A stretch of DNA of 64,000 nt from Odiellus spinosus (taxonomy: Eukaryota; Arthropoda; Arachnida; Opiliones; Phalangiidae): contig CAWUCO010000169.1 of assembly GCA_963920705.1 (NCBI GenBank), forward strand, positions 312,501 through 376,500. The letters run 5' to 3'. Below, piece by piece: positions 31,455 through 57,428 of this stretch. Each line of letters begins with the position of its first letter. Position 1 is the first letter of the stretch. The position numbers and the translations under genes were made by a program. The notes under the pieces were generated by a model. It made no database searches, was not told where the DNA came from, and worked only from the letters and a program-made list of their open reading frames with translations.

Positions 31455-31728
31455 CGCCAGCTGCAGAAAGTGTAGACGATACAATTTAAAACGGTTAAGA
31501 AATATGTTGTTAAATAACAAGATAACGTTAATATCCGAGGTAAATTATTCTTACCATCTGCGGAGTTAATTGATAGTAAAGTCAGAAAAATTCAGAATTG
31601 AATTATACTCGTAATTAGAATGCAACAAATTGTTTTAAAGGAAGTATCAAGATGCGGAATACTTTGATCAAAAAAAAATCATCCTAGATACTGCCTCTCA
31701 TTATAGTGTTAATTTCACTTACGTAGGG
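31455..31728 (-). other. Three outlying microexon-like cassettes
   Basis: On the minus strand three sites show CAG, then 3 or 6 nt, then a donor: 31455-31460 (CTGGCG, GTAAGT), 31555-31557 (ATG, GTAAGA) and 31723-31728 (CCCTAC, GTAAGT). They share flanking similarity with the ~98-bp array at 34990-37165, for example the GATACAATTTAAAACGGTTA side. Confidence 0.45.
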
Positions 31729-31927
31729 CTGCGTGTTAAGGCGATGCGTTTACAATATGGCAAAAGGATTAAAGAAAATGAAATGCATTTATGCTCTAAA
31801 ATATCTCATCGTACATTTTTAGCTAGTCCCAACCCTAGTGGGGTCTAGCTAATATATTCACTGCGGCGTTGGCGTCGGCGTCTTGCAAGAAGACGAAATA
31901 CGTCATCGAATAACTTTCGTCTCCTTA

Positions 31928-32039
31928 CCTCTCCGAGTGAACTTTTAGTTCACGGAGAGGTTCTGTCTGTTACGTCATCGAATCGTTAAAACTTTCGTCT
32001 TCTTACCTCTCCGAGTGAACTTTTAGTTCGCGGAGAGGA
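31928..32039. repeat. Tandem pair of CCTCTCCGAGTGAAC hairpins
   Basis: Two 34-nt hairpins (31928-31961 and 32006-32039), 78 bp apart, pair CCTCTCCGAGTGAAC with GTTCACGGAGAGG (or GTTCGCGGAGAGG) around TTTTA. Each is followed by CTGTCTGT. They are the reverse-orientation relatives of the terminal hairpin at 26106-26135. Confidence 0.8.
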
Positions 32040-32465
32040 TCTGTCTGTACGTGACGTCAGAAGAAGACGTCATCACCCACGGCGCTTGACCCTCCAATAG
32101 AATTCGCATATACAGTTATTAACTTCTACCATACTGTAAACGTACATCCACCAGAATTCATTGAAGAGCAGCAACCGTTACTCGCTTGTTAGTTTATAAT
32201 GATAAACGAACGCCTTATATAGTATCTTTTGGATTCGCGTCTATTTTAGCCTTCTGAGGTTATAGCTTTTACTGAATTGAAACGTAATATTCATTTAAAT
32301 TAAAATTAAAACAGATTAAATGATTTAACTTAATCTAAAAACCAATCTTGCTGAAACTTAAATTTAATATAAAAGATATTTTCGAAGATATTCAATATTT
32401 TCTTATAGGTTGATTAGATAAAGGCGTGTTTTCACGGGTGTTCAAGATAAAATGAATTAATAATT

Positions 32466-32790
32466 TTGGTCTACCCCCATTTCGCCCAATTTATTTTCGC
32501 CCAATTTCATTTCGCCCAATTCCCATTTCGCCCAGTTTCTTTTCGCACAATTTCATTTCGCCCAATTCCCATTTCGCAAAATTTCTTTTCGCCCAAATCC
32601 CATTTCGCCCAACCCCATTTGGCCCAATTTCTTTTCGCCCAATTTCTTTTCGCCCAATTCCCGTTGGCCCAATTCCCATTTGGCCCAATTCCCATTTGGC
32701 CTAATGTCTTCTCGCCCAATCTCGTTTCGCCCAATTTTGATTTGGACCAATCTCATTTTGCCCAAGTCACATTTTTCCACTTTTTTCCCC
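32466..32790. repeat. 16-bp TTTCGCCCAATTCCCA minisatellite
   Basis: About twenty degenerate 15-16-bp units. The Phe-Ala-Gln-Phe repeat frame on the plus strand and the Trp-Ala-Lys frames on the minus strand are by-products of the repeat. Confidence 0.9.
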
Positions 32791-32794
32791 CCAA

Positions 32795-32823
32795 CCTAAC
32801 CAAACCTAACCTAACCTAACCTA
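32795..32823. repeat. Interstitial telomere-type (AACCT)n
   Basis: Five or so AACCT units, one with a substitution, form the complement of the arthropod telomere motif TTAGG. Too short to be a telomere; consistent with an interstitial copy. Confidence 0.7.
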
Positions 32824-32879
32824 AATTAAATAAAAGTCACTTTTTTGGCCTACTAAGACTTTAAATTTTAAAAGGTTTA

Positions 32880-33175
32880 AGCTTTAATCGTTTTAGGCGA
32901 AAAGGGAAGAGAAATTTTTGGGTTGGGCGAAATGGGAATAGATAATTCTAGGCTAACTGATAAAACGATTGGGCAAATTGGGATTGGGCGAATTGAGAAA
33001 AGGAATCTTTAGTTTGGGCAAAATGGGAAGAGATAATTTAGGGCCAAATGATAAAGCGATTGGGCAAAGTAGGATTGGGCGAAATGGGAATAGATAATTT
33101 TGGGCAAAAAATGCCTTGGGCGAAATGGGAATAGATCATTTTGGGCGAAATATTTTGGGCGAAATGGGTACATAC
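32880..33175. repeat. Inverted, looser copy of the 16-bp minisatellite
   Basis: GGGCGAAATGGGAA, TTGGGCAAA and related units run in the opposite orientation to 32466-32790, so the two blocks form a large imperfect inverted repeat around the AACCT run. Confidence 0.75.
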
Positions 33176-33189
33176 CATAATGGTCAGAT

Positions 33190-33712
33190 ATTATGGTGCG
33201 TTTTCACGGGTATCCAAGATAAGACGATAAAGATTAGATGTAGAGGTGCCGTCACAAGGGTATTCAAGGTAAAAATTAATAAAGATTAGATATAAAGGCG
33301 TGTTCGCAGGGTATCCAAGATAAAATGACTTAATAAAGAATAGATATAAAGACGCGTTTCCAAGATAAAAATGATTTAATAAAGAATATATATTAAGTCC
33401 CGTTCGCACGAGTACCCAAGATAAAATGACAAAGATAATATATAAATGCCTGTTCGCACGGGTATCTAAGTTAAAAATTAATAAATATTCGATATGAAGC
33501 CACGTTCACACGTGTATCCAAGATAAATTAATAAAGATTAGATATAAATCCGCGTTCAGACTGGTATCAAAGAAAAATTAGGATTAGATATAAAGCCGCG
33601 TACACATGGGTATCCAAGATAAATACATAACGATTAGATATGAAGCCGCTTTCACACGGGTATCCAAGATAAATTAATAAAGATTAGATATAAAGACGCG
33701 TTCACAGGTAGC
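33190..33712. repeat. ~55-65-bp degenerate tandem repeat
   Basis: About nine copies of a unit containing GGGTATCCAAGATAAA and AAGATTAGATATAAAG. A further unit precedes the neighbouring minisatellite near 32405-32455, so that minisatellite has grown inside or beside this array. Confidence 0.8.
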
Positions 33713-33719
33713 CAAGTTG

Positions 33720-34113
33720 AAAAACATGATCTGAAAAACATGATTTGCAAAACATGATTTGCAAAACATGATTTGCAAAACATGATTTGCAAAACATGAT
33801 TTGCAAAACATGATTTGCAAAACATGATTTGCAAAACATGATTTGCAAAACATGATTTGCAAAACATGATTTGCAAAACATGATTTGCAAAACATGATTT
33901 GCAAAACATGATTTGCAAAACATGATTTGCAAAACATGATTTGCAAAACATGATTTGCAAAACATGATTTGCAAAACATGATTTGCAAAACATGATTTGA
34001 AAAACATGATTTGAAAAACATGATTTGAAAAACATGATTTGAAAAACATGATTTGAAAAACATGATTTGAAAAACATGATTTGAAAAACATGATTTGAAA
34101 AACATGATTTGAA
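33720..34113. repeat. 14-bp minisatellite, about 28 copies in two variant blocks
   Basis: Tandem AACATGATTTGCAA (about 19 units) switches at about 33998 to AACATGATTTGAAA (about 8-9 units). A 14-bp period leaves all three minus-strand frames open for 129-158 codons; these are artefacts. Confidence 0.95.
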
Positions 34114-34989
34114 AAACTTTACGCAACTTCGTGTTTAAAGGAAACGCCATTCAAATTGTTCAAAGAGCGTTTATGCATGCATAACAAGCCCCTGCTATAG
34201 TATAATTTTTTTCAGCCTCTTTTACAATGTCATGGGTCTAGCTATAACTATGGGCTTGACCATCTTGTTTCCCTCGCTTTATAATAATTAATAATGATAC
34301 AATAGAAGTTTTTCTTATTTCTGATTTAATATTATAATAAAATTTATGGTATTATAATACAATATTAGCTTTCTCTTTATATGGTCAAGAAGGATCAGAC
34401 AAGGAGAGGAAAAGTGGGGCTGCGATGGGATGTGGCTATAGGTATCCGACAGCGTCTACATTAATAATTTGCCTTAGAGTGTTAGTCGAAAGGAGAAACT
34501 AGGAGAAAAACTCAGCTTTAACAAAATATTATATTAAATTTCATAAAAGGTGCGAAATTAAGATGTGGAATCATCGTGAAGTCTGCAGTAAACATATCTT
34601 GTCCCAATGTGCAAGGTTGATGATTCCACGCGGCTGAAGCCCGTTTACTTTTTTCCTGCAAAATTACAGATTTTTTAGTCGTAACTCCACTTTAAGGTTT
34701 TCAGTTTTCTCATAATACAAAGATCATTCAAAATTGAATCATTTCTCTAATAAAAGCAATCATTAATATCAAGAGTATATGAAGAGTGATTCGCCATAAA
34801 CTGGTTAACGACGAGGTTTCAAACTCACTGTAGATTCCAGCCTACTTTCCAAGCTAGAATAGTTTTGTATACTATAGGCCTATTTAATCGATTAGAAATT
34901 GATAGGAAAACTTGCATTTTCCATTTAATTAGTAGAGAATGAGTTTCTAGTATTAACCAAAAAAAAAAAAAATTTACTTAATCCATTAA
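34114..34989. other. No gene seen
   Basis: AT-rich. A separated inverted pair GTGGAATCATCG/GATGATTCCAC lies at about 34565-34630. No coding family. Confidence 0.4.
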
Positions 34990-37165
34990 TAAATTATACT
35001 TACCACCTGCAGATTCCATTGGTTATATACAACTATGAAACGGTGTTCGTTAGTTCACGTTTAATATTATATTATTATTAATCCATAAATAAAATATACT
35101 TACGAGCTGTAGAATTCATTGGTTATATAATTTTAAAATGTATTCATTAGTTCACGTTTTAAATTATATTTTTATAAATCCATAAATAAATTATACTTAC
35201 CAGCTGTAGAATTCATTGGTTACATAATTATGAAAAGGTGTTCATTAGTTCACGTTTAAAAAAATATTATTAATAATCAATAAATAAATTATACTTACGA
35301 CCTGCAGAATCCATGTGTTTACAATTTTTAAAATTTTAATATTATTAGCAAAAAAATTAGCTATACCAAACCACTGCAGAAACTAGTGCTCGGAATCGAA
35401 TAAAAATGATCTTACGTTACTCCTATTTTTATCTAGACCCCCACTCCCGTAGTCGTCGGCGTCGAAAAACGTCATAGTCTCTTATCCACCAGACGTCCGA
35501 GCCAAGTTTGAAATATAAACTCGAATTTATAACATCTGCCTCCAAGCCACTGACCGCGCCCGATGCTGCTAAGGAATCTATTAGTGACACGTCGTTTCAC
35601 GATTCGTCGAGGCGCGAAAGTGGTTCCTTTAGAAAATTTTGGGATTTTTCCATATATTTTGGCGCGCCGTTCAGCGAAGAGATTTGTGGCCAAATTCTGG
35701 GTTTGAGAAGTTTATTTTGTAAGCCCGCTCGTAAAACCTTATTTCCCGTAAAGGGAAACATTCCCTTAAAACGGTCTTATTAATTAGGCTAATTATCGCG
35801 GTTGGTTAATTAGGATCATATCTTCTCCAGGTATTGTCCTAGAGCGTTGAAGTCGCGTTCCGCAAATGGGGCTTAGCCCCATTCTTAATCTACAAAATGA
35901 GCCCTTCCACCTTTAAATAGACCCAACCAAAGTTAAGTTATACATTTTTAAATGAAAGTGTTCAGAATTAAAAGCGTTCAGATTTAAGGACTGTAAATCT
36001 ATCCAATTAATAAACGTTATACAAATTCCGAGCACTAGCGGAAACCGTAATCCACAAAATGTACTTACTCTGAGCTGATGAAAAGTAGGTGATACAATTA
36101 AGAAACGGTTTAGAACTTGTTTGTTCACTTTTGAAATTAGATTATTATTATCCAATAAATAATTTAAACTTACCATCTGTAGAATTCATTTGTTACGCAA
36201 TTATGAAAAGGAATTCGTTAGTTTTAAATTGGGTTATTATATATTAATTATAATATATTAAATAAATTATACTAGCTGCAGAATGCATTGGTTACACATT
36301 TATTATAAATTTATTTATTTCTTAACTTTTATAGTTCTGTTTTTTAACCAAGAAATAAATTATACTTACCCACTGCAGAATCCATTGGTTACACAATTAT
36401 GAAAATATATATATTAGTTCAACTATAATATTAGATAATTATTAACCAATAAATAGATTATACACACAAGCTGCAGAATCCATTGGTTACACAATTATAA
36501 AAAGATATTCATTAGTGCTTTTTTAAATTTGATTAATTTTAGCTTATTAATAAATTATACGCACGTCTGTTATTATCTTTTGGTTACACAATTACAAGAA
36601 AGGTATTCATTAGTTCACTCTGGATTATTTTTATTTTGTTAATAAAATATGCTACCCACCAGCTGCAGAATCCATTGGTTACACAATTATGAGAAAGGTC
36701 TTCATTGGTTTACTTTTAAAACTAGATTATTATTATCCAATAAATGAATTAAACTTACAGCCTGCAGATTCCATTTTCATACAATATTAAAAAGGTATTG
36801 ATTAGTGCGTATTTAACATGTCAAAATTATTAATTAGTAAATAATTACGCTCACCATCTGTAGAATTCATTGGTTACGCAATTATGAAAAAGTCATTCAT
36901 TGGTTTACTTTTCAAAACTAGATTATTATTACCCAATAAATGAATTAAACTTACATTCTGCAGAATCCATTTTCATACAATATTTTAAAGGTATTGATTA
37001 GTGCGTATTTAACATGTCAATTTTATTAATAATGATACTCACGATCAACTGCGAAGAATCGATTGGTTACACAATTATGAAAAGGTAATCTATAGTTATT
37101 TGATTATTATTATCCTGTAAATGAATTATACTTACAGCCTGCAGAATTCATTTTTTACGCAGTTT
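34990..37165 (-). repeat. ~98-bp tandem cassettes with microexon-like core
   Basis: About fifteen recognisable units at ~97-100-bp spacing. Thirteen share an exact minus-strand layout: ATG, RATTCT, RCAG, three variable bases, then a donor (mostly GTAAGT), always 16 nt from ATG to donor. ATG-to-donor blocks are at 35004-35019, 35104-35119, 35201-35216, 35299-35314, 36174-36189, 36273-36288, 36370-36385, 36468-36483, 36660-36675, 36759-36774, 36855-36870, 36955-36970 and 37136-37151. Two others (36069-36074 and 37043-37048) have six bases between CAG and donor. ACTAATGAA, a branch-point-like motif, precedes CAG by ~45 nt in many units. They could be 3- or 6-nt microexons, alternative first exons starting at ATG, or a satellite. 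Right edge cut by the transposon at 37191. Confidence 0.6.
35400..36055. other. Break in the cassette array; GC-richer insert, no gene recognised
   Basis: Open frames exist on both strands (plus 35508-35783, minus 35472-35693) over a GC-richer patch with AAGGTTTTACGAGCGGG-like sequence, but neither matches a family I know. Probably an insertion in the cassette array. Confidence 0.3.
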
Positions 37166-37190
37166 TAATAATTATTTATTAGTGCATTTG

Positions 37191-38252
37191 GAAAGAACAA
37201 CAGCAACTCCCCATAAGAGTCTGGGTCCACGTAATGTTAAAAATTTTCGTCTCTTTTATGATAAATTCGTATTATATTATTAAAATAGGGTAGTTGGGGG
37301 ATAATTTAAAGCTAAAATTCGAGCTCACAACTGTAAATTTTGGGAATTACAACGAATGGAAGGTTTCTTCCATAATGTAAAGAATAGGAAGAATCTATGA
37401 CTTCCGTGCCGGATATGAAAGCCTTCCCCCACACGAAAATCTTGAACGGTTATAATTTTAGATTCATAATTATGTTAGGAAAATATTAGGAAAGAATTAT
37501 TTTGTAACTGCCACGGGTATAGTGCTGGCGGCAAAATGAAATTCGTATATTTTTGGTCTACTATGCCTCGAAATCCTCGAAAACGCCTGTAGAAGTGTTC
37601 CACTTGTCAAGCATTCATGCAGTAGGCTTTTGCTAGCTTTACAGGGGCCGTGCAAAGACTATATAGCTTACTTGAATAGTCTTTGGTGTATAAGAAACTC
37701 GAAAAATAAATAGAGAAATCATACCAATTAGAAGATACTGGAGTAGTATCTTTAATTTTTATTTCATATTAAACAAAACACACTTGTATAAAACGGACAA
37801 ATTATTCATTTAACGCTAAGGTTTTCTACGTTTAACGTATGTCTGGTAGTTCAAGCTCAGTGGCATCTTCACACACTACACGCAATTTTGACTGGTACCA
37901 ACTGCCTCGATCTTCATGGCGACGATAACCAAGATACCAGATTACGCTGCTAACGTGAACACAAGTACCTTTCGTCAAACTACCACCTTTGCAATTGCAA
38001 TACCAGCCTTTAATGGCATTTGCACCTGTCCCGTTCGGTACATAACGAATTAGAGCTTGGTGAACAGATGAGGTGGAAAATTGACCAGGCACGCGTATAC
38101 GAATTAAGTCATGTTCAACTTTGGACACTTCGACGCTGAAAGAGCCGGATTTCTCTATAGTCAACGCCACATAAGATTCAGCGCGTTTCGTTTTAAAGTC
38201 GCTCATTACCACCTCACGTACATCACTTTCACGAAGTACAGGGAAGTCTTCA
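37191..38252 (-). repeat. Left inverted arm carrying transposase C-terminal copy
   Basis: The minus-strand frame 38245-37832 repeats the SWIM-like C-terminal region of the main transposase with a few amino-acid changes. Homology to 40604-41665 stops near 38252, where unrelated sequence begins. Confidence 0.85.
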
Positions 38253-38415
38253 CTAATTAAAGACGTCTTTAATATTTTTTGCCAGCCAGGTTGGCGAAAA
38301 ATAATTAAACCTGTTTTTATAAACATTAAAAAAATTGTAATATCTGGTTTGAACCATGATCTTAAGAACTTTCCTTATCAATAACATCAATGTGAGAGTC
38401 ACTTGGAATTTGGAG

Positions 38416-38784
38416 ATGGCTCCAAATACATGTTACGCGTGCAATCGGAAAGTTACCAATAGTACAAGTAGAGGTATAGGCACTCACGTAAAGGCTGGCT
38501 TTGCTCGTTTTCTTCGTTTTAGTAAAGGGTTATTACCACTTGTAATTAATAGCAAAACAACGAAGATTTGTTTAAAGTGCTCGGGTCTGTCACGAAAGTT
38601 TCAAACGTTCTTAAATGCTAGCAAATCGTCCTTCAGTAGTGATCATGGCTCTTCAACGTCATCGTCTTCACCACAAAAACGAAGACAAATGACGCAAGTA
38701 TCTAATCCATCAACGTCAACAGTACCTGAGCCATCAACGTCCACAGTACCTGAACCAACAAAGTCCACAGTATCTAATCCATAA
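38416..38784 (+). pseudogene. Duplicated N-terminal zinc-finger block of the transposase
   Basis: About 122 codons identical to the start of the main transposase (38832-39200), displaced by 416 bp in direct tandem. It begins MAPNTCYACNRKV, continues with a second CxxC pair (ICLKCSG), and ends after Ser/Thr/Pro repeats at TAA. The duplication unit spans roughly 38367-38782. Confidence 0.75.
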
Positions 38785-38831
38785 CTTTCCTTATCAATAA
38801 CATCAATGTGAGAGTCACTTGGAATTTGGAG

Positions 38832-41024
38832 ATGGCTCCAAATACATGTTACGCGTGCAATCGGAAAGTTACCAATAGTACAAGTAGAGGTATAGGCACT
38901 CACGTAAAGGCTGGCTTTGCTCGTTTTCTTCGTTTTAGTAAAGGGTTATTACCACTTGTAATTAATAGCAAAACAACGAAGATTTGTTTAAAGTGCTCGG
39001 GTCTGTCACGAAAGTTTCAAACGTTCTTAAATGCTAGCAAATCGTCCTTCAGTAGTGATCATGGCTCTTCAACGTCATCGTCTTCACCACAAAAACGAAG
39101 ACAAATGACGCAAGTATCTAATCCATCAACGTCAACAGTACCTGAGCCATCAACGTCCACAGTACCTGAACCAACAAAGTCCACAGTATCTAATCCATAA
39201 CCGTCACCAATACCTCAGCCATCAACGTCGCAATTACCACGAAAGCGTACGTCATCAAACACTATTGCCATAAAGCACAGTTGTGTTCGGCCCCTGCCAA
39301 AGACTTGCTTCATTTGCGATGTTAGTACACGAACCAGGGTAAAAGCCGAAGTGAGAACAAGTATATTTGTGGAAAGAGCCATATTTATTCATCTGGACAA
39401 CCGAATGTGCTCCACGCATCTCGTTAACGGAGAGCTTCCCACCGAAATAATTGCTGGAATTCAGGTTTCCGCTAGATCAACCATTATGACTGCCACGGAC
39501 ATTGAGCAACTATTACAGGACCTCAGGAAATGTGTTAACGACCTACGGACGCCGAGCTTTGACAACTTCATACAAAGTGATGAAGACTGTAAAGTATTAA
39601 CTTCATTGTCCCTGCACGAGTTCCTAGAGTTGCATTCGACTATTGAGGACATTATTCGTACCATCAGATGCTGTTCGTCGAAGACAGCTCTAGCAGTATT
39701 ATTGGTGAAATTACGATTGGGTATCTCCAATAAGGTGTTATCAACTTTATTTCATTTAACTGAAAGATCGGTATCAAACACGGTAAAAGCGGTTATTATG
39801 GCTTTATCGGAGCATTTCGTGCCACATCATTTTGGCCTGCAACACTTATCACGTGACAATCTGATAACAAACCATCAATCTGGAGCAGCAGTAAAACTCT
39901 TTGCTAACAACAAGCCTAATTGTCTTATTACCATTGTAGATGGCACCTATATCAAGGTTAGAAGATCCAAGGACTATACCGTTCTTCACAAATCCTTCTG
40001 TGTGCACAAAGGCCAGCATATCCTCAAGCCAATGTTAATGGTAACAACTACGGGTTACATAATAGATATAATCGGACCCTACTTTGCTAATGGCCGCAAT
40101 AACGACGCGCGCATTTTAAACCATTCTATCAAAAAGAGAGAAGAACTCCAGTCTTTCTTTCAAGTTGGTGACGTTGTACTGGCAGACCGCGGTTTTCGAG
40201 ACTCCAACAGCGTACTGACTGAACTGGGTGTGGATTTACAAATGCCTTCGTTCTTGTCTAAAGGCGAGAAGCAAGTAAACACGCAAGAAGTTAATCGTTC
40301 CCGACAAGTAACGTACCTCAGGTGGCCGGTTGAAGTTAGGAATGGGCATTTGCAGACGGTGTATCGTTTTTTTCAAAACCGTATACCTGTGCATATGTTA
40401 CCATTAGTTCCGGAACTTCTTCAAATTGCTGCTGCGCTGTTGAACGCCTACCACCCGGAGTTACATCTTAAAGGTTCCTGGGAAGACTCCGTCGAAAAAA
40501 TGCTGGCAGTCTCTACGAAAGAAAATCCTCTTAAGGAAGTAGTTGAGCGCGATAATCTGCTTCGCAAACCGTCTAAATGGCAACGAATTGAGGATAGTGA
40601 ATTTCAAGACTCCCCTGTACTTCGTGAAAGTGATGTACGTGAGGTGGTAATGAGCGACTTTAAAACGGAACGCGCTGAATCTTATGTGGCGTTGACTTTA
40701 GAGAAATCCGGGTCTTTCAACGTCGAAGTGTCCAAAGTTGAACATGACTTAATTCGTATACGCGTGCCTGGTCAATTTTCCACCTCAGCTGTTCACCAAG
40801 CTCTAATTCGTTATGTACCGAACGGGACAGGTGCAAATGCCATTAAAGGCTGGTATTGCAATTGCAAAGGTGGTAGTTTGACGATAGGTACTTGTGTTCA
40901 CGTTAGCAGCGTAATCTGGTATCTTGGTTATCGTCGCCATGAAGATCGAGGCAGTTGGTACCAGTCAAAATTGCGTGTAGTGTGTGAAGATGCCACTGAG
41001 CTTGAACTAACAGACATACGTTAA
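38832..41024 (+). pseudogene. DDE_Tnp_4-type (Harbinger/IS4EU-ISL2EU-like) transposase with one in-frame stop
   Basis: A cut-and-paste transposase acting in the nucleus. It has an N-terminal CxxC...CxxC zinc finger, a Ser/Thr/Pro repeat linker, then a second Cys/His cluster (CFICDV...CSTHL). Next come a helix-turn-helix (GISNKVLSTLFHLTERSVS) and the catalytic core with Asp in VDGTYIKV, Asp in VLADRGFRD and Glu in WPVEVRNGH. Last is a SWIM-like CxC...CxH motif (WYCNCKGG...TCVHVSS). The frame is open for 731 codons except TAA at 39198-39200. The neighbouring linker repeats have TCA at the equivalent place, so a Ser-to-stop change is likely. AATAAA follows near 41093. Unless read through, the stop separates the N-terminal finger from the catalytic part; ATG-initiated translation of the downstream part remains possible. 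Confidence 0.8.
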
Positions 41025-41869: not shown

Positions 41870-43702
41870 TTATATCAAAAATGTCTTTGCGAACAAAGAC
41901 CCAGAAGGACATGTTATGGCCTTGAATGTCTGAAGTGACAGATATTTAATTTTCTTTTAAAACATTAAATTTAAATACAATTAAATTTTCTTTTAAAACA
42001 TTAAATTTAAATACAATTAAATTTTCTTTTAAAACATGAAATTTAAATATAATTAGATTTTCTTTTAAAACGAAATTTAAATATAATCACAATCTGGCAC
42101 GATTTAGAGTTTCAAATTTCAAAACAACTGATTTTATTCACTCGGAAATATTTAAGAAAAAACATAACAGACGATTTTCTCCCATTGACGCTTAACATTA
42201 AATTTCGCTTAATTATTTTTCAGGGAAAACGTGTATTGAACTGTTATTTTTCAGTATAACGCGAGTCCACTTTTTGTTTTCTTAATTTAACCCGAATTTC
42301 CACGACTCGCAATTGAACGGATCGTTAAAAATACTCGCCGGTTTATTGGAATGGGTATATGATAAAGGGAAATGTGATTTTTAAAGCCCGTTTAAAGTCA
42401 CCTTCTTTTCTAACTTAGCAGACGACGCAAACCATAACAATTTGTACTTTCAAAGCTATATTGCGCGCGCGAGGGAAGAGAACTTCAAAGCGACGAATTT
42501 TAGAGCGGATAAGGTTTTTAAATAAATTGTAATACTTTCATTTTTCTTTTCATTAAAACCGTACAATTTAAATGATGATTTCCATAAGGGACCACTAATT
42601 AGTTATTAGGAGTTATAATAAAACATTATCCAAGGATTAGGTTTGTTCGTTCGCAACCTAAATTAAAATATGGGGAATTTTTATTCCCTTTAAATTCCTT
42701 GTATAAGCATTCATAAGCTAACATGAACGAATTGCCTCGACTAAAGTCGAGGAGTTGTAATAAAACATTATCCATGGATTAGGTATGTTCGTTTGCAACC
42801 AAGATTAAAAATTAAAATATGGGGAATTTTTTTCCCTTTAAATTCCTTGTATAAGCATTCATAAGCTAACATGAACGAATTGGCTCGACTAAAGTCGAGG
42901 AGTTGTAATAAAACATTATCCATGGATTAGGTTTGTTCGTTTGCAACCTAGATTAAAAATTAAAATATGGGGAATTTTTTTCCCTTTAAATTCCTTGTAT
43001 AAGCATTCATAAGCTAACATGAACGAATTGGCTCGACTAAAGTCGAGGAGTTGTAATAAAACATTATCCATGGATTAGGTTTGTTCGTTTGCAACCTAGA
43101 TTAAAAATTAAAATATGGGGAATTTTTTTACCTTTAAATTCCTTGTATAAGCATTCATAAGCTAACATGAACGAATTGCCTCGACTAAAGTCGAGGAGTT
43201 ATAATAAAACATTATCCATAGAAAACATTATCCAATTAAGGTATGAGATCAGATCGTAGAACTTTGATTCTACGCCTAAAGCCAAAGCTAAATAAAGTAA
43301 ATTTTTCTATCGAACGAAAAGTTTCGTTTTGTTTGACACGTAATCCCTGAAAAATAATTAAGCGAAATTTAATGTTAAGCGTCAATGGGAGAAAATCGTC
43401 TGTTATGTTTTTTCTTAAATATTTCCGAGTGAATAAAATCAGTTGTTTTGAAATTTGAAACTCTAAATCGTGCCAGATTGTGATTATATTTAAATTTCGT
43501 TTTAAAAGAAAATCTAATTATATTTAAATTTCATGTTTTAAAAGAAAATTTAATTGTATTTAAATTTAATGTTTTAAAAGAAAATTTAATTGTATTTAAA
43601 TTTAATGTTTTAAAAGAAAATTAAATATCTGTCACTTCAGACATTCAAGGCCATAACATGTCCTTCTGGGTCTTTGTTCGCAAAGACATTTTTGATATAA
43701 TA
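41870..43702. mobile_element. Inverted-repeat element, copy A, with internal 148-bp tandem repeats
   Basis: Arms of about 360 bp (41870-42235 and 43343-43702) start TTATATCAAAAATGTCTTTG. Within each arm AAATTTTCTTTTAAAACATT is tandemly repeated. The centre holds about four ~148-bp direct repeats (42606-43205), each ending CTCGACTAAAGTCGAG, a 16-nt palindrome. No coding region. Confidence 0.75.
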
Positions 43703-43759
43703 TCTGTCACTTCAGTCTAGCACGAAAGTGTTAACTTCTATATTAAAAGACTAGCCCTT

Positions 43760-44870
43760 TAAAAAGTGATTCAGTCAAATCTCTACATTTTTACTATTGC
43801 CCTTTAAACCCAATTAAAATAAAAATTTTGCTTATTTTTGATGTTAATAGCTGGGGCAGCCGCACTTGATTCAGTTGGATCTCTACATTTTTACCATTGC
43901 CCTTTAAACCCAATTAAAATAAAATTTTTCATAATTTTTGATGTTAATAGCTGCGACAGCCGCACTTGATTCAGTCAGATCTCTACATTTTTACCATTGT
44001 CCTTTAAACCCAATTAAAATTAATTTTTTCATAATTTTTGATGTTAATAGCTGCGGCAGCCTCACTTGATTCAGTCAGATCTCTACATTTTTATCATTGC
44101 CCTTTAAACCAAATTAAAATAAATTTTTTCACAATTTTTGATTTTAATACCTCCGACAGCCGCACTTGATTCCAGTCAAATCTCTAAATTTTTAGCAGTG
44201 CCCTTTAATCCCAATTAAAATTAATTTTTTCATAATTTTATATGTTAATACCTCCGACAGCCGCACATGATTCCAGTCAAATCTCTACATTTTTACCAGT
44301 GCCCTTTAATCCCAATTAAAATTAATTTTTTTCATAATTTTTGATGTTAAAAGCTGGGGCAGCCGCACTTGATTCCAGTCAAATTTCTACATTTTTACCA
44401 GTGCCTTTAATCCCAATTAAAATAAATTTTTTCATAATTTTTGATGTTAATACCTCCGGCAGCCGCACTTGATTCCAGTCAAATCTCTACATTTTTACCA
44501 GTGCCCTTTAATCCCAATTAAAATTAATTTTTTCATAATTTTTGATGTTAATACCTCCGGCAGCCGCACTTGATTCCAGTCAAATCTCTACATTTTTACC
44601 AGTGCCCTTTAATCCCAATTAAAATTTATTTTTTCATAATTTTTGATGTTAATAGCTGCGGTAGCTGCACTTGATTCAGTCAAATCTCTACATTTTTACC
44701 AGTGCCCTTTAATCCCAATTAAAATTTATTTTTTCATCATTTTTGATGTTAATACCTCCGTCAACCGCAGCGAAATCTTCATATTTTTCCCATTACCCTT
44801 TAAACTAAATTAAAATTATTTTTTTCATTATTTTGGATGTTAATACCTTCCTTATTGCCGTTCGAAATGC
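43760..44870. repeat. ~100-bp satellite, array A (about 11 units)
   Basis: Units carry GATTCAGTCAAATCTCTAC, TGCCCTTTAAACCCAATTAA and TTTTTGATGTTAATAGCTG. They are more diverged than array B. A CCTCCGACAGCCGCA variant marks the later units. Confidence 0.9.
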
Positions 44871-44929
44871 CAAGTCGTTCGGACTTTCACATTTTCAAAA
44901 AGGAGAGTACTTTTAAGTTTTAAGGCGGA

Positions 44930-45955
44930 GAAATTGAAACTTAATGTTATTCTATGGGATTTAGATTTTTTGTACGAGACTTACCTTTCAGATTTATTTT
45001 CTAATGATTCCAGATATTTTTCGGACTTTATTTTAAGACTAATTTCATAATTTTACACCGATTAGTTTGGCCACAGTCTATTTATAAAAACGGCAAAAAA
45101 AAAAAAAAAAAAAAAACAGGCGGAGAAATTGAAAATTAATGTAATTCTATGGGATTAAGATTTTTTGTAAGAGACTTACCTTTCAGATTTATTTTCTAAT
45201 GATTCCAGATATTTTACGGGCTTTAGTTTTAGACTAATTTCATAAACGGCAAAAATATGAAGAAGGAGAAATTAGGTCAGAGTTCAATACCCATAGCCTC
45301 CAAATCAAGCGCGCTCCTCCACGAGTCCTCCTGCACGTGATTTTAAAAAGCCATATAAAACCTAAGCCTAATTTGTCAAATTAGGCTTAGGTTTTTGGCG
45401 AATCTATTTCTCCGCCTTACTTTTTCGTCCGTTTTCATAAATAGATTGTGGGCCAACTAATCGGTGTAAAATTATGAAATTAGTCTTAAAATAAAGCTCG
45501 AATCTTAATTCATACCACACGGAAAATCCAAGTCTGAAAAATATCCGGAATTATTAGAAAATAAATCTGAAAGGTAAGCCACTTTCAAAAAACCAAATCC
45601 CATAGAATAACATTACGAATTTGGCCATGCGCGAAACCAGCTAAGTACCAAAAATGGGTCAACTTCAGAATTAATTTTAAAATACTTAGAATTAATATTT
45701 TTAAATGAAACTAGGAAAAGGCACACATTCGAACCTTGCTCTACCACTTAAAATTGATTTTAACCGTAACAAATAATTCCTCTTTTAGTTCTGCGATGCA
45801 AGGGACATGTCCTCGAAAGAGTCGATTTTAATGTTATTTCAATGGGGAAATGGAGCGTTCTGATTGGCTAAAGGTCCATTTTTTTAAGGAAATCGAAATA
45901 GCATTACAGATGATGATGGGCCCATAACATAGAACCCTACCGGGTTCTAAGAATA
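44930..45955. repeat. Foldback block, copy A
   Basis: AATTAATGTTATTCTATGGG and ACTAATTTCATAATTTTACA on the left reappear inverted on the right around a perfect hairpin at 45359-45394 (AAACCTAAGCCTAATTTG / AAATTAGGCTTAGGTTT). The block ends at AGAACCCTACCGGGTTCT. An A-run (about 45095-45117) interrupts the left arm. Confidence 0.8.
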
Positions 45956-47388
45956 TTATATCAAAAATGTCTTTGCGAACAAAGACCCAGAAGGACATGT
46001 TATGGCCTTGAATGTCTGAAGTGACAGATATTTAATTTTCTTTTAAAACATTAAATTTAAATACAATTAAATTTTCTTTTAAAACATGAAATTTAAATAC
46101 AATTAGATTTTCTTTTAAAACGAAATTTAAATATAATCACAATCTGGCACGATTTAGAGTTTCAAATTTCAATACAACTGATTTTATTCACTCGGAAATA
46201 TTTAAGAAAAACATAACAGACGATTTTCTCCCATTGACGCTTAACATTAAATTTCGCTTAATTATTTTTCAGGGAAAACGTGTATTGAACTGTTATTTTT
46301 CAGTATAACGCGAGTCCACTTTATGTTTTCTTAGTTTAACCCGAATTTCCACGACTCGCAATTGAACGGATCGTTAAAAATACTCGCCGGTTTATTGGAA
46401 TGGGTATATGATAAAGGGAAATGTGTTTTTTAAAGCCCGTTTAAAGTCACCTTCTTTTCTAGCTTAGCAGACGACGCAAACCATAACAATTTGTACTTTC
46501 AAAGCTATATTGCGCGCGCAAGCGGAGAGAATTTCAAAGCGACGAATTTTAGAGCGGATAAGCTTTTTAAATAAATTGTAATACTTTCATTTTTCTTTTC
46601 ATTAAAACCGTACAATTAAAATGATGATTTCCATAAGGGACTACTAATTAGTTATTAGGAGTTATAAAAAAACATCCATGAATTAGGTTTGTTCGTTTGC
46701 AACCCAAGTTAAAAATTAAAATATGGTGAATTTTTATTCCCTTTAAATTCCTTGTATAAGCATCCGTAAGCTAAGATGAACGAATTGCCTCGACTAAAGT
46801 CGAGGAGTTGTAATAAAACATTATCCATGGATTAGGTTTGTTCGTTTGCAACCTAGATTAAAAATTAAAATATGGGGAATTTTTTTCCCTTTAAATTCCT
46901 TGATAAGCATTCATAAGCTAACATGAACGAGAACGAATTGCCTCGACTAAAGTCGAAGAGTTATAATAAAGCATTATCCATAGAAAACATTATCCATAGA
47001 AAACATTATCCAATTAAGGTATGAGATCAGATCATAGAACTTTGAGTCTATGCCTAAAGCCAAAGCTAAATTAAGTAAATTTTTCTATCGAAATTTAATG
47101 TTAAGCGTCAATGGGAGAAAATCGTCTGTTATGTTTTTCTTAAATATTTCCGAGTGAATAAAATCAGTTGTATTGAAATTTGAAACTCTAAATCGTGCCA
47201 GATTGTGATTATATTTAAATTTCGTTTTAAAAGAAAATCTAATTGTATTTAAATTTCATGTTTTAAAAGAAAATTTAATTGTATTTAAATTTAATGTTTT
47301 AAAAGAAAATTAAATATCTGTCACTTCAGACATTCAAGGCCATAACATGTCCTTCTGGGTCTTTGTTCGCAAAGACATTTTTGATATA
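45956..47388. mobile_element. Inverted-repeat element, copy B
   Basis: Same as 41870-43702 but with only about two internal 148-bp units and a shortened inner part of the right arm (deletion near 47085). It directly abuts the end of block A, so the units are head-to-tail. Confidence 0.75.
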
Positions 47389-47460
47389 ATATCTGTCACT
47401 TCAGTCTAACACGAAAGTGTTAACTTCTATATTAAAAGACTAGCCCTTTAAAAAGTGATT

Positions 47461-49880
47461 CAGTCAAATCTCTACATTTTTACCATTGCCCTTTAAACCC
47501 AATTAAAATTAATTTTTTCATAATTTTTGATGTTAATAGCTGCGGCAGCCGCACTTGATTCAGTCAAATCTCTACATTTTTACCATTGCCCTTTAATCCC
47601 AATTAAAAAAAATTTTTACATTATTTTTGATGTTAATAGCTGGGGCAGCCTCACTTGATTCAGTCAGATCTCTACATTTTTACCATTGCCCTTTAATCCC
47701 AATTAAAATTAATTTTTACATTATTTTTGATGTTAATAGCTGGGGGAGCCGCACTTGATTCAGTCAAATCTCTACATTTTTACCATTGCCCTTTAATTCC
47801 AATTAAAAAAAATTTTTACATTATTTTTGATGTTAATAGCTGGGGGAGCCGCACTTGATTCAGTCAAATCTCTACATTTTTACCATTGCCCTTTAATCCC
47901 AATTAAAATTAATTTTTACATTATTTTTGATGTTAATAGCTGGGGCAGACGCACTTGATTCAGTCAAATCTCTACATTTTTACCAGTGCCTCTTAATCCC
48001 AATTAAAATTAATTTTTTCATTATTTTTGATGTTAACAGCTGGGGCAGCCGCACTTGATTCAGTCAGATCTCTACATTTTTACCATTGCCCTTTAAACCC
48101 AATTAAAATTAATTATTTCACAATTTTTGATGTTAATAGCTGGGGCAGCCTCACTTGATTCAGTCAAATTTCTACATTTTTACCAGTGCCCTTTAATCCC
48201 AATTAAAATTTATTTTTTCATTATTTTTGATGTTAATAGCTGGGGCAGCCGCACTTGATTCAGTCAGATCTCTACATTTTTACCATTGCCCTTTAAACCC
48301 AATTAAAATTAATTATTTCACAATTTTTGATGTTAATAGCTGGGGCAGCCTCACTTGATTCAGTCAAATTTCTACATTTTTACCAGTGCCCTTTAATCCC
48401 AATTAAAATTTATTTTTTCATTATTTTTGATGTTAATAGCTGGGGCAGCCGCACTTGATTCAGTCAGATCTCTACATTTTTACCATTGCCCTTTAAACCC
48501 AATTAAAATTAATTATTTCACAATTTTTGATGTTAATAGCTGGGGCAGCCTCACTTGATTCAGTCAAATTTCTACATTTTTACCAGTGCCCTTTAATCCC
48601 AATTAAAATTTATTTTTTCATTATTTTTGATGTTAATAGCTGGGGCAGCCGCACTTGATTCAGTCAGATCTCTACATTTTTACCATTGCCCTTTAAACCC
48701 AATTAAAATTAATTATTTCACAATTTTTGATGTTAATAGCTGGGGCAGCCTCACTTGATTCAGTCAAATTTCTACATTTTTACCAGTGCCCTTTAATCCC
48801 AATTAAAATTTATTTTTTCATTATTTTTGATGTTAATAGCTGGGGCAGCCGCACTTGATTCAGTCAGATCTCTACATTTGTACCATTGCCCTTTAAACCC
48901 AATTAAAATTAATTTTTTCATAATTTTTGATGTTAATAGCTGGGGCAGCCGCACTTGATTCAGTCAAATCTCTACATTTTTACCATTGCCCTTTAATCCC
49001 AATTAAAATTAATTTTTTCCTTATTTTTGATGTTAATAGCTGGGGCAGCCGCACTTGATTCAGTCAAATCTCTACATTTTTACCATTGCCCTTTAATCCC
49101 AATTAAAATTAATTTTTACATTTTTTTGATGTTAATAGCTGGGGCAGCCGCACTTGATTTAGTCAAATTTCTACATTTTTACCATTGCCCTTTAAACCTA
49201 ATTAAACTAAATTTTTTCATAATTTTTGATGTTAATAGCTGCGGCAGCCGCACTTGATTTAGTCAAATTTCTACATTTTTACCATTGCCCTTTAAACCCA
49301 ATTAAAAAATTTTTTTCATAATTTTTGATGTTAATGGCTGGGGCAGCCGCACTTGATTTAGTCAAATTTCTACATTTTTACCATTGCCCTTTAAACCCAA
49401 TTAAAATTAATTTTTTCATAATTTTTTATGTTAATAGCTGGGGCAGCCTCACTTGATTCAGTCAGATCTCTACATTTTCCCCATTGCCCTTTAAACCCAA
49501 TTAAAATTAATTTTTTCATCAATTTTGATGTTAATACCTCCGACAGCCGCAGCGAAATCATTATATTTTCCCCATTGCCCTTTAAACCAAATTTAAATTA
49601 AATTTTTCATCAATTTTGATGTTAATACCTCCGACAGCCGCAGTGAAATCTTTATATTTTCCCCATTGCCCTTTAAACCAAATTTAAATTAATTATTTCA
49701 GCAATTTTGATGTTAATACCTCCGACAGCCGCAATGAAATCTTTATATTTTCCCCATTGCCCTTTAAACCAAATTTAAATTAATTATTTCAGCAATTTTG
49801 ATGTTAATACCTCCGACAGCCGCAGCGAAATCTTTATATTTTCCCCATTGCCCTTTAAACCAAATTCCAATTAATTTTTT
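47461..49880. repeat. 100-bp satellite, array B, with a 200-bp higher-order repeat
   Basis: From 47461 to about 49060 the period is exactly 100 bp (CAGTCAAATC or CAGTCAGATC recurs every 100 positions). Between 48061 and 48860 two unit types alternate as a 200-bp dimer in four essentially identical copies. The last five or so units are shorter and carry CCTCCGACAGCCGCAGCGAA. Confidence 0.95.
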
Positions 49881-49969
49881 CATTATTTTTGATGTTAATA
49901 CCTTCCTTATTGCCGTTCGGAATGGCAAGTCGTTCGGAATTTCACTCATTTTTAAAAAGGAGAGTACTT

Positions 49970-51487: not shown

Positions 51488-52570
51488 TCATCCTGATGTC
51501 GTACATTTTGCATCTAGATGCGATGGGAATATAAGAGTAGGTAATTTAGTTTTAATGACGTCTCTATTTAGGAATAGCATTACTGGTGATTTTCCGGTTG
51601 TGTGTGTGGCTGATCGGTAATTCATCAAATGAGTGAGTAGTTGTGTTTTCCATTGTAGTCTATCAATTAAGTCGGTACGAATTGTTTTGCAAAAATAAGC
51701 ATCTGTCTTTTGGCCTGAGGCCACCTAGGGGTAGTATTATGGTGACTGAAACCTAGCTGCTTGGAAAAATTCTGAAAGTTTACTCTACTAAAAGGTGGAC
51801 CATTGTCTGATTTTAACTTGGAAGGAATTCCCAACATTGAAAACATGTTCCTTAAGGCTTTAATTGTTGATGAAGTGGTGGTGGAAGAAACAATGGCAAT
51901 TGCAGGATATCGGCTGTATTCGTTTATAACAGCTAAGATGTATTCACCTGTTGGCGTGGGCCCAAAAAAATCTACCGCTATGGAATGCCAAGGGTATTTC
52001 GGTAATATGGTCATTTGTAGTGCTTCACATTGCTTATTAGGTGTTGTGGCCAGGGATGGTATACAATGATCACTTTCTTGATATTTGTAAATCATAATTT
52101 ATCTCGAAATAGTTTTTTGGTTCTCACTACACCAGGATGTCCTTCGAGAGCAACATCGATTGCCGCAGGAATTAGTGATTATGGCAAAAGCTATGTTGGT
52201 GCCGCGCAGAAGCAATCCTTCACTTTCAGTTAGTTGATATTTTATGTTCTTGAAAGCTTCCCACAAGGCTTTATCTTTATCGGGATAAAGAACGACCGAT
52301 TCCCAAAGAGAGACAATCGAATTGCGTTGAATATTGGGGTCAGGGTTTCATCTTTGAGTGTCGCCTGTTTTACATCCGCGATCGTTATGGTGTTACTGTA
52401 GCTATCGGATAGGCGACAATAAGAGTGTGTATCTTGCAAGGATGTCGTGAAATATAATCAACAGGGTTAGTTTTTCCAGGATTATATTGAACATTAAAAA
52501 CGTATTGTTTTAACCGAAGTATCCAACGTTGTATCCTGATTGAGGTCATTGTTCGAGGGTTGTTAAAGAT
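51488..52570 (-). pseudogene. Ty3/gypsy retrotransposon pol fragment (RNase H end to integrase)
   Basis: Read leftward: the C-terminal part of RNase H with the YNPGKTNPVDYISRHP motif (about 52570-52440), a linker, a frameshifted HHCC-type zinc region (EGHPGVVRTKKLF), then the integrase core. The core has the first catalytic Asp (IAVDFFGP) and the second (LKSDNGPPF). The third catalytic segment is lost after TPRWPQA, where a small deletion and frameshift occur and the conserved Glu is absent. The frame then resumes (MNYRSATHTTGKSP). Several stops and shifts; no LTRs or upstream gag/RT in the window. Inactive remnant. Confidence 0.85.
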
Positions 52571-55546: not shown

Positions 55547-56014
55547 ATGGCGAAGACATGTATTCTCGAAGCTAGCTTCCTGCGGGCTAATGGCGAGTAC
55601 ATAATAAAGGAATTGGCGTACTACATCGTGGAAACGGGAGAGAATGGAGTCTTCTCCTTTAAACCGCCATTTCGGTACAACGAGCTCAGCTACAAAGACA
55701 GGCGTTTGAACGGATGGATTACCCGTAATATAGGAGGGATGTTTTGGTGCGACGGAGAATATAATTACAAGGACTTCGAAGATATTTTAAGGGGTCTTTT
55801 ACAAAAAGCAAACGTGTTTTGGACGAAGGGACTCGATAAGTCAATTTTCCTGTCGAGATATCTCGGTCATGACGTAGGAAATGCTGAGTCACTTGGCTGC
55901 CCTAAATTTACGAGAGAACCGATATTTGATTATTGTAAATACCACAAAAATAACGCCCAGTGTTGCTCTTTTAAAGCTTATAAATTAAATTTGTGGTTTA
56001 AAAAACAAAGTTAA
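55547..56014 (+). CDS. Conserved Polinton-type 155-residue protein
   Basis: A single-exon frame starting at ATG 55547, close behind a TATA box and ending before AATAAA signals at 56028-56037. The sequence opens with ILEASFLRANGEYIIKELAY and later has a KGLDKSIFLSRYLG block, a CPKF motif and a C-terminal Cys-x2-His plus Cys pattern (DYCKYHKNNAQCC). I recognise this general pattern from many proteins of unknown role encoded by invertebrate mobile elements; a DnaQ/RNase H-like fold has crossed my mind but I cannot show it. It is the leftmost gene of the rightward block. No breaks seen. Confidence 0.7.
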   Translation: MAKTCILEASFLRANGEYIIKELAYYIVETGENGVFSFKPPFRYNELSYKDRRLNGWITRNIGGMFWCDGEYNYKDFEDILRGLLQKANVFWTKGLDKSIFLSRYLGHDVGNAESLGCPKFTREPIFDYCKYHKNNAQCCSFKAYKLNLWFKKQS

Positions 56015-56027
56015 GTGTTTGTATATA

Positions 56028-56037
56028 AATAAATAAA
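56028..56037 (+). terminator. Polyadenylation signals
   Basis: Overlapping AATAAA hexamers lie 14-20 nt after the stop of the 155-residue protein gene. Confidence 0.5.
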
Positions 56038-56179
56038 ATTCGATTCGCACTCTTACTGATTTCTCAATTTAGTATAAAATACAAACGAACTTACTTTAAG
56101 TGTTTACCAATGATATACTTAGAAAAACTACCCATATATTAGAGTACTTCAGTTATCGTTCGCGAACGATTTTATTTGG

Positions 56180-56187
56180 TATAAAAA
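56180..56187 (+). promoter_or_regulatory. TATA box for the second Polinton gene
   Basis: TATAAAAA lies 63 bp upstream of the likely ATG at 56243, leaving a ~30-nt 5' UTR. Confidence 0.5.
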
Positions 56188-56242
56188 GGAACGGTATAGA
56201 TTGGAAATATTATTCTCTCGTTGGTCCCTTCTCATAGTAACT

Positions 56243-57000
56243 ATGGATGCTAAGAACCCCCTCCCAACCATCTGCAGTTTGTTGTATACCGCCACCCTAG
56301 GATTAATATCACAGAACCTTGAATTAACATTCAAGGTTTTTATGATAATAATCCAAAAATATCATAAGCGCTGGCATAACGGGATCTACCCCAACGAAGC
56401 TACAGGACAAATCAGGGTGGATCTCCCATATAACGCGAATCTGGAGAACGTGCGGACTAACGGCCTAAAAGGAAGTCAAAAATTTATATCCGTAAGATTA
56501 TTTTTTAAAAATTACTATGCTAGTTGGGTACTTTAAATTATTATTAAGTTTATTCATTAATATGTCTTTATCAGGTAAAAAAAATCGATATCCCGGTCGA
56601 AGGTGAAGCAGAGGTGGCTGACATCCTGAGTTCTCTAGGGATCGAGGTTAATATCTCCAAGCAGGGTGTTCCGATTCCCGCCTCCACCCAGTTGGCAATC
56701 CCTGCGGCGATACCCATCCCACAACAAGAACCCATTCCGACAACGTCACAGGCTCTGGACCTCGTACAACTGTTGAAAGACAACAACGGTGTTCAAACGT
56801 CTTCCACGATCACCCCGCAGGTGATATCTCAAATCAGGGAACCAGATGTCCCCAGTCTCGAGAATTTGATCGTTCCAGACTCTGCTCAGCCTCGCACTGG
56901 GGTTTTAGCGTCATCGGGGACCTCAAAAATCCTCGAATCTAATCCTCGGAAAAGATCTAAATCCGCGGATAAGGTTTTGATTAAAAAGAGAGCCCGGAAA

Positions 57001-57031
<31 letters not shown>

Positions 57032-57428
57032 CGGCGTGTAACGTAACGTCTTTACGCCCGGACAGCGGTCGCGATTGCGAACCAGGTGTGGCGCCAAGGC
57101 GTAAGGCCTTGAGCAACTCAGTTATGGTAAGTAACTACGCAGGGATTAGGACTGGGAATTGCCCACGCGACGGAAGGAGATGGGAATGGGGAAGAGGAAG
57201 GACCATTCCGTCGCGGACCATTCGCAACACTCCCTATGGGCAAGGGACCTGCGATTCGAGCAGGACAACACCCAGACCTTGCCACTGAGACGCCAGTTTA
57301 CAGGAGTGCGCCACCACTCCCGGCGAGCCCGGAAATCTAAGCCTGTTATCGAGACGGATGATTTACAGCATTTAATCAGCCTGGAACAGATCTGCCAATC
57401 GATCTTGGATGACCCCGAGGGTGATTAA
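56243..57428 (+). pseudogene. Unrecognised Polinton protein gene, one intron, interrupted by a SINE
   Basis: Exon 1 runs 56243-56491. A GTAAGA...TATCAG intron occupies 56492-56574 (83 nt). Exon 2 runs from 56575 to the insertion at 57004 and resumes after 57338, ending at TAA 57428. The middle is Pro/Ser/Thr/Gln-rich (VPIPASTQLAIPAAIPIPQQ) and is followed by a basic cluster (NPRKRSKSADK). The frame before and after the inserted SINE agrees, so the insertion appears to be the only lesion. It adds a poly-T tract coding for Phe and then stops. Function unknown; position between two conserved Polinton genes suggests a structural or DNA-binding accessory role, which is inference. Confidence 0.55.
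57004..57324 (-). mobile_element. SINE insertion with 14-bp target-site duplication
   Basis: The 321-bp insert has a 28-nt poly(T) at its left end, i.e. a poly(A) tail on the minus strand. It is flanked by perfect GAGCCCGGAAATCT copies at 56990-57003 and 57325-57338, the signature of LINE-mediated retroposition. The minus-strand head starts GCCGGGAGTGGTGGCGCACT and includes degenerate pol III A-box (TGGCGCACTCCTG) and B-box-like (GCTCGAATCGC) motifs, so a tRNA-type SINE is likely. Its GC-rich body contrasts with the surroundings. Perfect duplications argue for a recent event. Confidence 0.8.

Follow-up and report, generated by a model that had tools for sequence, protein, structure and literature searches.

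Tandem arrays of putative one-codon exons in a predicted family of small secreted peptides of the harvestman Odiellus spinosus

Genes that are assembled from many very small exons are known from aphids and schistosomes. The aphid bicycle genes encode fast-evolving putative effectors and contain many unusually small internal exons; as described in PMC9168663, a gene has on average about 17 exons, a 'megacycle' gene has more than 100 microexons, and nearly all internal exons begin at codon position 2. The microexon genes of schistosomes code for secreted gland proteins that are made from many tiny exons (PMC5825161). Even smaller exons are a microexon of 3 base pairs (bp) in Drosophila homothorax (PMC7392893) and microexons of 1 nucleotide (nt) in APC11 and VPS55 of plants (PMC8831610). 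Here, we analyse an array in the genome of the harvestman Odiellus spinosus. It is located in a stretch of 64,000 nt (assembly GCA_963920705.1, contig CAWUCO010000169.1, positions 312,501 to 376,500), which is referred to as the window. The genome comprises 443,074,358 bases in 286 contigs; one contig of 16,074 bases carries COX1, which shows 98-99% identity to phalangioid harvestmen. RNA-seq data from the abdomen of O. spinosus are public (ERR10890709; PMC11503004). On the minus strand of the window, between positions 31455 and 37165, the original prediction had noticed units of about 98 bp in which an acceptor-like CAG is separated by 3 or 6 nt from a splice donor, and had tentatively interpreted them as one array of one- or two-codon microexons. 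We consider it likely (probability roughly 0.88) that the array belongs, as its 3' part, to a gene from a family for small secreted peptides, the mature region of which would be encoded almost entirely by one-codon exons.

All 18 predicted cassettes were confirmed; 14 of them enclose 3 nt and four enclose 6 nt (TTGATC, 37043-37048; CTCAGA, 36069-36074; CCCTAC, 31723-31728; CTGGCG, 31455-31460, all on the minus strand). One of the 14 3-nt cassettes, CTA at 36273-36275, has the poor donor GTATAA. Two degenerate units had been missed, namely AACAG-AC-GTGCGT at 36559-36574 and CTGCAG-TGGTTTG-GTATAG near 35380, and in neither is the enclosed length a multiple of three. With at most three mismatches, the window contains 11 matches to TTCTGCAGNNNGTAAGTATAA (0.05 expected from 100 shuffles) and no match to the same pattern with four Ns instead of three (0.08 expected).

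The spacing of 3 nt is not confined to the window. An exact genome-wide search for CTGCAG-N(k)-GTAAGTATAA yielded 247 matches for k = 3 and none for a reversed-pattern control; for k = 0-2 there were no matches to either pattern, and for k = 4-20 there were two (control: one). The units are arranged in tandem with a length of 97-98 bp and are present on several contigs; the median intron length, determined over 298 introns, is about 94 nt. Furthermore, weight matrices for acceptors and donors were trained on 3-nt units and then used to search without regard to spacing in twelve regions, which comprise a part of the window and twenty 10-kilobase stretches joined into eleven. A strong donor was found at most 30 nt from 416 of the 483 strong acceptors, and 413 of these 416 pairs enclose 3 nt; the other three enclose 12, 12, and 15 nt. 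Array L041, which was fetched afterwards and lay outside the matrix training, was picked because matches with k = 3 had been found there; from its 39 acceptors, 34 pairs were obtained and all 34 enclose 3 nt. A looser count, which allowed two mismatches per side on both strands, gave for multiples of three 414 matches at 3 nt, 13 at 6, 4 at 9, 3 at 12, 3 at 15, and 4 at 18. For all other distances up to 20 nt, it gave 2 at 2 nt, 1 at 5, 4 at 7, 1 at 8, 1 at 13, 7 at 14, 2 at 16, 1 at 17, 11 at 19, and 2 at 20; left in these numbers are several 13-, 18- and 19-nt matches that have a second CTGCAG before the triplet and several 7- and 14-nt matches on the other strand. Length variants were also seen between aligned paralogues: a difference of 12 nt distinguishes a 15-nt exon from a 3-nt exon, and one 0-nt unit, CAG/GTGAGT, is common to two paralogues.

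The triplets had originally been read as phase-0 codons for mostly hydrophobic residues, which is not borne out. The comparison of the three phases supports introns in phase 1, such that a codon would consist of the final base of one exon and the first two bases of the next. At the 298 junctions between adjacent units, no stop codon is found in phase 1, where 8.3 are expected by re-pairing. The same holds for junctions that are unique per region (0 of 216; 6.8 expected, P = 0.0004) and for those unique overall (0 of 146; 4.4 expected, P = 0.007). The third codon base in phase 1 is T at 202, A at 61, C at 21, and G at 14 of the 298 junctions. Read in this phase, the arrays most often specify Gly, Pro, Thr, His, Leu, Arg, Ala, Tyr, and Asp. 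Two other phases were rejected: phase 0 has stops in 5 of 376 triplets (6.5 expected), which is no avoidance, and phase 2 has stops in 27 of 314. Hence, the statement that no unit encloses a stop codon is correct for the window and incorrect for the genome, which has these five stop triplets in phase 0. For example, a four-unit higher-order repeat in L015 contains TAG triplets in phase 0 and reads LGPY/PGPY in phase 1.

In a set of 350 unique units, A-2, G-1, G+1 and T+2 are nearly invariant (1.94-2.00 bits; as the units were selected by the motif itself, the values for its 18 columns are too high). Donor position +3 is A or G (0.75/0.23) and position +5 is G (0.96). The information content is 0.10 bits at exon position 1, 0.77 at position 2, and 0.12 at position 3. 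Within columns -47 to +60, exon position 1 has the lowest information and position 3 is tied lowest with column +45; uniform variability over the unit, which would have spoken for a satellite, was not seen. A one-sided comparison of paralogues was based on 445 unit comparisons from 40 ordered region pairs, which are not independent, and received no contribution from four of the twelve regions (L009/L010, L015/L016, L019/L020, and L022/L023). The AG had changed in 4 of 890 cases (0.45%) and the GT in 11 of 890 (1.2%); for the intron, the corresponding value is 1938 of 28632 (6.8%). Exon positions 1, 2 and 3 had changed in 176 of 443, 21 of 444, and 174 of 442 cases, and part of this excess can result from tandem units that are out of register. 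In a register-free test, which used those 96 of 103 mutual-best unit pairs with at most 14 flank differences, each position of the triplet was changed in 8 of 96 pairs as compared to 240 of 8832 for the intron, which is a threefold difference. A rate comparison requiring that both copies are annotated was dropped, because it is circular for AG and GT; moreover, two of its ten pairs yielded nothing on microexons.

Among the matches listed, 5' and 3' modules are common to many arrays. By means of tblastn, 14 signal-peptide-like exons were found in the first loci (for example MLSNQMIHRFTLRFVVFIAMALLLANAAYSQ); their N-terminal stretch is hydrophobic as judged by composition. Of these 14 exons, 13 run into the phase-1 donor GTAATT and one, that of L016, has lost the phase. 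A phase-1 donor also follows the signal-like exon in L041 (1 of 1), in L042-L060 (19 of 19, in a scan that was set to look for phase-1 donors), and in the diverged loci L035-L040 (6 of 6), which results in 39 of 40 places in all. Genome-wide, tblastn with E up to 10 detected at least 37 such exons; this search misses some of the first 14, and one hit has an internal TAG. The pooled ratio of nonsynonymous to synonymous differences (pN/pS) is 0.57 for the 10 of 14 copies that have equal length. The scan for signal exons covered 15 stretches, of which one, the start of L017, was devoid of such an exon; in L015 and L017, it is possible that an extra larger exon lies upstream of the arrays. The loci L035-L038 on contig C11 are diverged relatives with the same signal exon, whose units, inspected by eye, contain CCG, AAA or AAG triplets; three of them have an apparent 21-nt second exon. 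At the other end, 17 copies of a terminal exon were found by motif. The AG is in place in 16, and in all 16 (14 aligned) one or two whole sense codons precede a stop in phase 1. Just 3' of the stop, at 34565-34629 on the minus strand of the window, lies a 65-nt hairpin, whose sequence is kept among 14 aligned copies. Its folding corresponds to a z-score of -3.1 and was equalled by 1 of 200 shuffles. An Rfam search over 34000-38000 gave sub-threshold matches only (at the hairpin, mir-200 with E = 2.1). Thus, the spacing, the absence of junction stops, and the signal and terminal exons agree with the proposed array of one- or two-codon microexons, and the proposed phase has to be replaced.

In 9 of the 14 signal-bearing copies, a chain from the signal exon to the stop could be modelled; of the remaining five, four run off the fetched stretch and the second L015/L016 gene is without its terminal AG. 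As the spliced chains exclude stops by construction, they are a model and not a test, and the model for L009/L010 in particular depends on weak sites. Examples are the peptide MLPNQMVLRFTLGFIVVILLANAVGTMATKRDSKRDPGPYLGPYPGPYPGPYLGPYLGPYHGHGQHEGHGKL, after which the stop follows, and a Gly-rich peptide of 71 residues. Among complete relatives of the window copy, L028 is the closest; it was spliced by hand and reads MLSNQMIHRFTLRFVVFIAMALLLANAAYSQRFDQYGSALDADSPAHSLHCGKK up to the stop, with the 6-nt exons included and the CTA unit omitted owing to the loss of its acceptor. Further members are rich in PGPY, Asp or Thr; for the Thr-rich one, L026, a signal exon was not found. Seven of the nine spliced models end in Gly-Lys or Gly-Lys-X, which we take to resemble an amidation signal. 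Judged from these models, the products appear to be small secreted peptides. A Pfam search assigned no family to any of three models.

These observations can be combined to the following model. Exon 1 would encode a signal-peptide-like stretch and end after the first base of a codon, i.e. in phase 1. It would be followed by up to tens of units of about 97 bp, each consisting of an acceptor, an exon of 3 nt (sometimes 6-15 nt and once 0 nt), and a donor. In a terminal exon, one or two whole codons would precede the stop that closes the frame. As the internal exons would be symmetric (1-1) with every codon split over two exons, units could be gained, lost or skipped without a frame shift. Given introns of about 94 nt and exons of 3 nt, exon definition is unlikely. 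Presumably, splicing relies on intron definition and is stepwise; every unit would serve as a recursive splice site at which three bases remain in the transcript. Duplication of tandem units would then lengthen the peptide codon by codon. The anatomy of the arrays and their spacing, phase, frame, and conservation can be read directly from the genome; splicing, secretion, and amidation are inferred. As a tentative suggestion, the family may encode fast-diversifying peptides with a defensive (antimicrobial-like) or gland function; this role is deduced from the signal-like exon, the Gly-Lys ends, the low complexity, and the turnover of triplets. One may also speculate, though this is rather doubtful, that the arrays are coding satellites with one codon per unit, in which unequal crossing-over inserts, removes and reshuffles single residues, selection diversifies the triplets, the common intron sequence is homogenised, and splicing of codon subsets, which the 1-1 symmetry of the exons permits, generates an in-frame peptide library.

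Several findings weigh against the reading as a gene family with one-codon exons. The evidence for splicing is genomic sequence. No strong pyrimidine tract precedes the acceptors of the units. In the twelve regions, a strong donor at a distance of up to 30 nt is missing for 67 of the 483 strong acceptors, and 48 strong donors likewise lack a strong acceptor; due to these many degenerate units, it is uncertain which exons are used, and the same is true for alternate units with donor GTTGTA in L009/L010. In the one-sided comparison, positions +3 to +6 (135 of 1768; 7.6%) and -8 to -3 (244 of 2654; 9.2%) change no slower than the intron (6.8%), such that between close paralogues only AG and GT are held and not the wider motif. 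These comparisons are not independent, and tandem units may have been paired in the wrong register. The wobble position varies as much as the other triplet positions in the register-free test, and no ratio of nonsynonymous to synonymous substitution rates (dN/dS) is therefore claimed for the microexons. Stops in phase 2 are also below the order-shuffle null (27 of 314; 47.6 expected, standard deviation 4.5). Since like triplets cluster, this null somewhat overstates the expected number of stops, and the tests with unique junctions are safer. L041 gives no information on stop avoidance, as 0.3 stops are expected there. The window copy, the first L012 array, and the arrays of L022, L024/L025, and L026/L027 are those for which a signal exon was not found. 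The other two phases of the terminal exon are open for longer, namely 16-60 codons. The short end in phase 1 is consequently not forced by composition; judged on the terminal exon alone, a C-terminal extension in another phase could still exist. In 4 of the 14 aligned copies, however, the open frame downstream of the stop changes its phase through a 1-nt deletion just past the stop, an argument against the use of this frame. Finally, a protein search with one spliced model gave no homologue, and a search with another gave three weak matches that were judged to be low-complexity.

How do other explanations account for these data? A variant that is compatible with the gene family reading assumes that the exons are real and that each transcript takes only some of them, such that combinatorial or mutually exclusive splicing would yield many peptides per gene. 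We regard this as possible but doubtful. Site strength differs widely among the units, and any subset of the strong internal exons would keep the frame because their lengths are multiples of three; yet the ordered reading gives PGPY-type repeats and no junction stops, as if neighbouring units were usually joined. According to a more sceptical view, the arrays are a decaying satellite in the first intron, the signal exon is joined directly to the terminal exon, and what is seen in the units is left over from exons that were once used. The arrays do have satellite-like traits such as higher-order repeats and the CTA runs in L026, many units are degenerate, and copies such as that of the window lack a signal exon. 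The conservation of AG and GT is, however, well above the intron level, junction stops are absent, the spacing is exactly 3 nt genome-wide, and direct joining would give a peptide of about 34 residues that is nearly all signal. This view is thus improbable.

A non-coding satellite, in which CAG-NNN-GTAAGT is a motif for protein binding or recombination and the triplet is unconstrained, would conform with tandem units of 97-98 bp on several contigs. It leaves unexplained the lack of phase-1 stops, the wobble composition, the in-frame length variants, signal and stop exons in matching phase, and the A/G degeneracy at donor position +3, and we consider it very improbable. Dispersed copies, which the original prediction had associated with an ordinary satellite, do exist; yet these copies carry gene-like ends.

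In the window, the units do not form a single array as had been proposed; 37194-34265, 34264-31821, and 31820-31364 are three different things. The window copy (37194-34265, minus strand) has kept 15 microexons and the terminal exon and reads ...FDQYGSALANAQSPARGKK before the stop. Its homology to L028 and L011 ends at 37194, and a tblastn search of the window for a signal exon found none that was convincing (best E = 0.5). Because it has no signal exon, it is probably the 3' part of a gene copy that is truncated at its 5' end. The region 31820-31364 is a fragment of another gene copy and holds the three units at 31455-31728. The individual features are as follows.

37136..37138, minus strand: microexon GCT, the first exon left in the copy; in L028, the counterpart GCT heads the intact units that follow the signal exon
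37043..37048, minus strand: microexon TTGATC, 6 nt
36955..36957, minus strand: microexon AAT
36855..36857, minus strand: microexon ATG, donor GTGAGC
36759..36761, minus strand: microexon GCT
36660..36662, minus strand: microexon CTG, donor GTGGGT, weak by matrix
36559..36574, minus strand: degenerate unit AACAG AC GTGCGT, probably unused; its use would break the frame
36468..36470, minus strand: microexon CTT
36370..36372, minus strand: microexon TGG
36273..36275, minus strand: weak microexon CTA, donor GTATAA; acceptor AG lost in L028, frame kept if used or skipped
36174..36176, minus strand: microexon ATG
36069..36074, minus strand: microexon CTCAGA, 6 nt; CTGACA in L028
35299..35301, minus strand: microexon GTC
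35201..35203, minus strand: microexon CTG
35104..35106, minus strand: microexon CTC
35004..35006, minus strand: microexon GTG, the last before the terminal exon
34645..34655, minus strand: start of the coding part of the terminal exon, TTTTGCAG/GA AAA AAG TAA, phase 1, with stop
34565..34629, minus strand: hairpin after the stop, 11-bp arms GTGGAATCATC/GATGATTCCAC
34265..34925, minus strand: 3' module common to family members; it comprises the terminal exon and, 3' of it, sequence in which AATAAA-like signals were noted by eye
31821..34264, no strand: other sequence with several minisatellites between the two gene pieces; its two sides are contiguous in L025 and L026
31723..31728, minus strand: second-copy fragment, microexon CCCTAC
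31555..31557, minus strand: second-copy fragment, microexon ATG; in L013 and L020, ATG and then CTGGTG/CTGGCG follow the signal exon
31455..31460, minus strand: second-copy fragment, microexon CTGGCG

Upstream of the window copy, an open reading frame (ORF) at 39351-41024 codes for a DDE_Tnp_4 transposase, which we take to be of the Harbinger type. A copy of the C-terminal part of the transposase, with a weak SWIM match, is located on the opposite strand at 37832-38326, and a perfect tandem duplication of 416 bp at 38367-39201. The region 42608-49903 consists of two adjacent blocks, each with a 148-149-bp and a 100-bp repeat, and is apparently a duplicated segment. An ORF at 51667-52095 (minus strand) with an integrase core domain (rve, E = 1.7e-12) is a retroelement remnant. 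Long ORFs on both strands occupy 55547-63881; one encodes a C2H2 protein and three others that were tested have no Pfam match. This run may represent an element of the Maverick/Polinton type. Outside the window, L030-L034 on contig C17 contain COX1-like pieces with stops, which are apparently nuclear copies of mitochondrial DNA.

If our reading is true, tens of consecutive 3-nt exons would be an extreme test of the spliceosome, as an exon of this size leaves no room for simultaneous occupation of its two splice sites. Tandem-repeat DNA would be a codon-by-codon source of new peptides, and standard annotation may overlook entire gene families with one-codon exons. In the open-licence literature of PubMed Central (PMC), we found no report on arrays of one-codon exons and nothing on microexons together with Opiliones. 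Single exons of 1 or 3 nt and secreted families with many microexons are already known; the novelty would lie in the arrays of one-codon exons.

The comparison with known systems reveals similarities and differences. The harvestman arrays share with the bicycle genes of aphids the intron phase (phase 1), in which an internal exon begins with the second base of a codon. In contrast to these genes, the internal exons of the harvestman are nearly all 3 nt long, are found in similar tandem units of about 97 bp, and would encode a low-complexity peptide. Bicycle proteins are characterized by a paired cysteine (CYC) motif and the bicycle fold; the spliced models of the harvestman contain few or no cysteines. 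As the animals belong to different classes, homology is not implied. The exons of schistosome microexon genes have 6-36 nt and are not known to be tandem copies of one unit; with respect to these sizes and this layout, they differ from the harvestman arrays. The microexons of 1 and 3 nt in other organisms show that such small exons are spliced in animals and plants, but they are isolated single exons and not arrays that constitute the bulk of a coding sequence. With recursive splice sites, also known as ratchet points, the units share the juxtaposition of acceptor and donor, and the 0-nt unit CAG/GTGAGT adds to this likeness; the difference is that here three bases stay at almost every step. 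Some models resemble the glycine-rich antimicrobial peptides of arthropods, such as acanthoscurrin, in being Gly-rich, and seven of the nine have amidation-like ends; a Pfam search with three models and protein searches with two models detected no sequence homology. The combination of phase-1 symmetry and fast-evolving secreted products raises the question of whether the microexon arrays of bicycle genes, schistosomes, and the harvestman have a shared cause.

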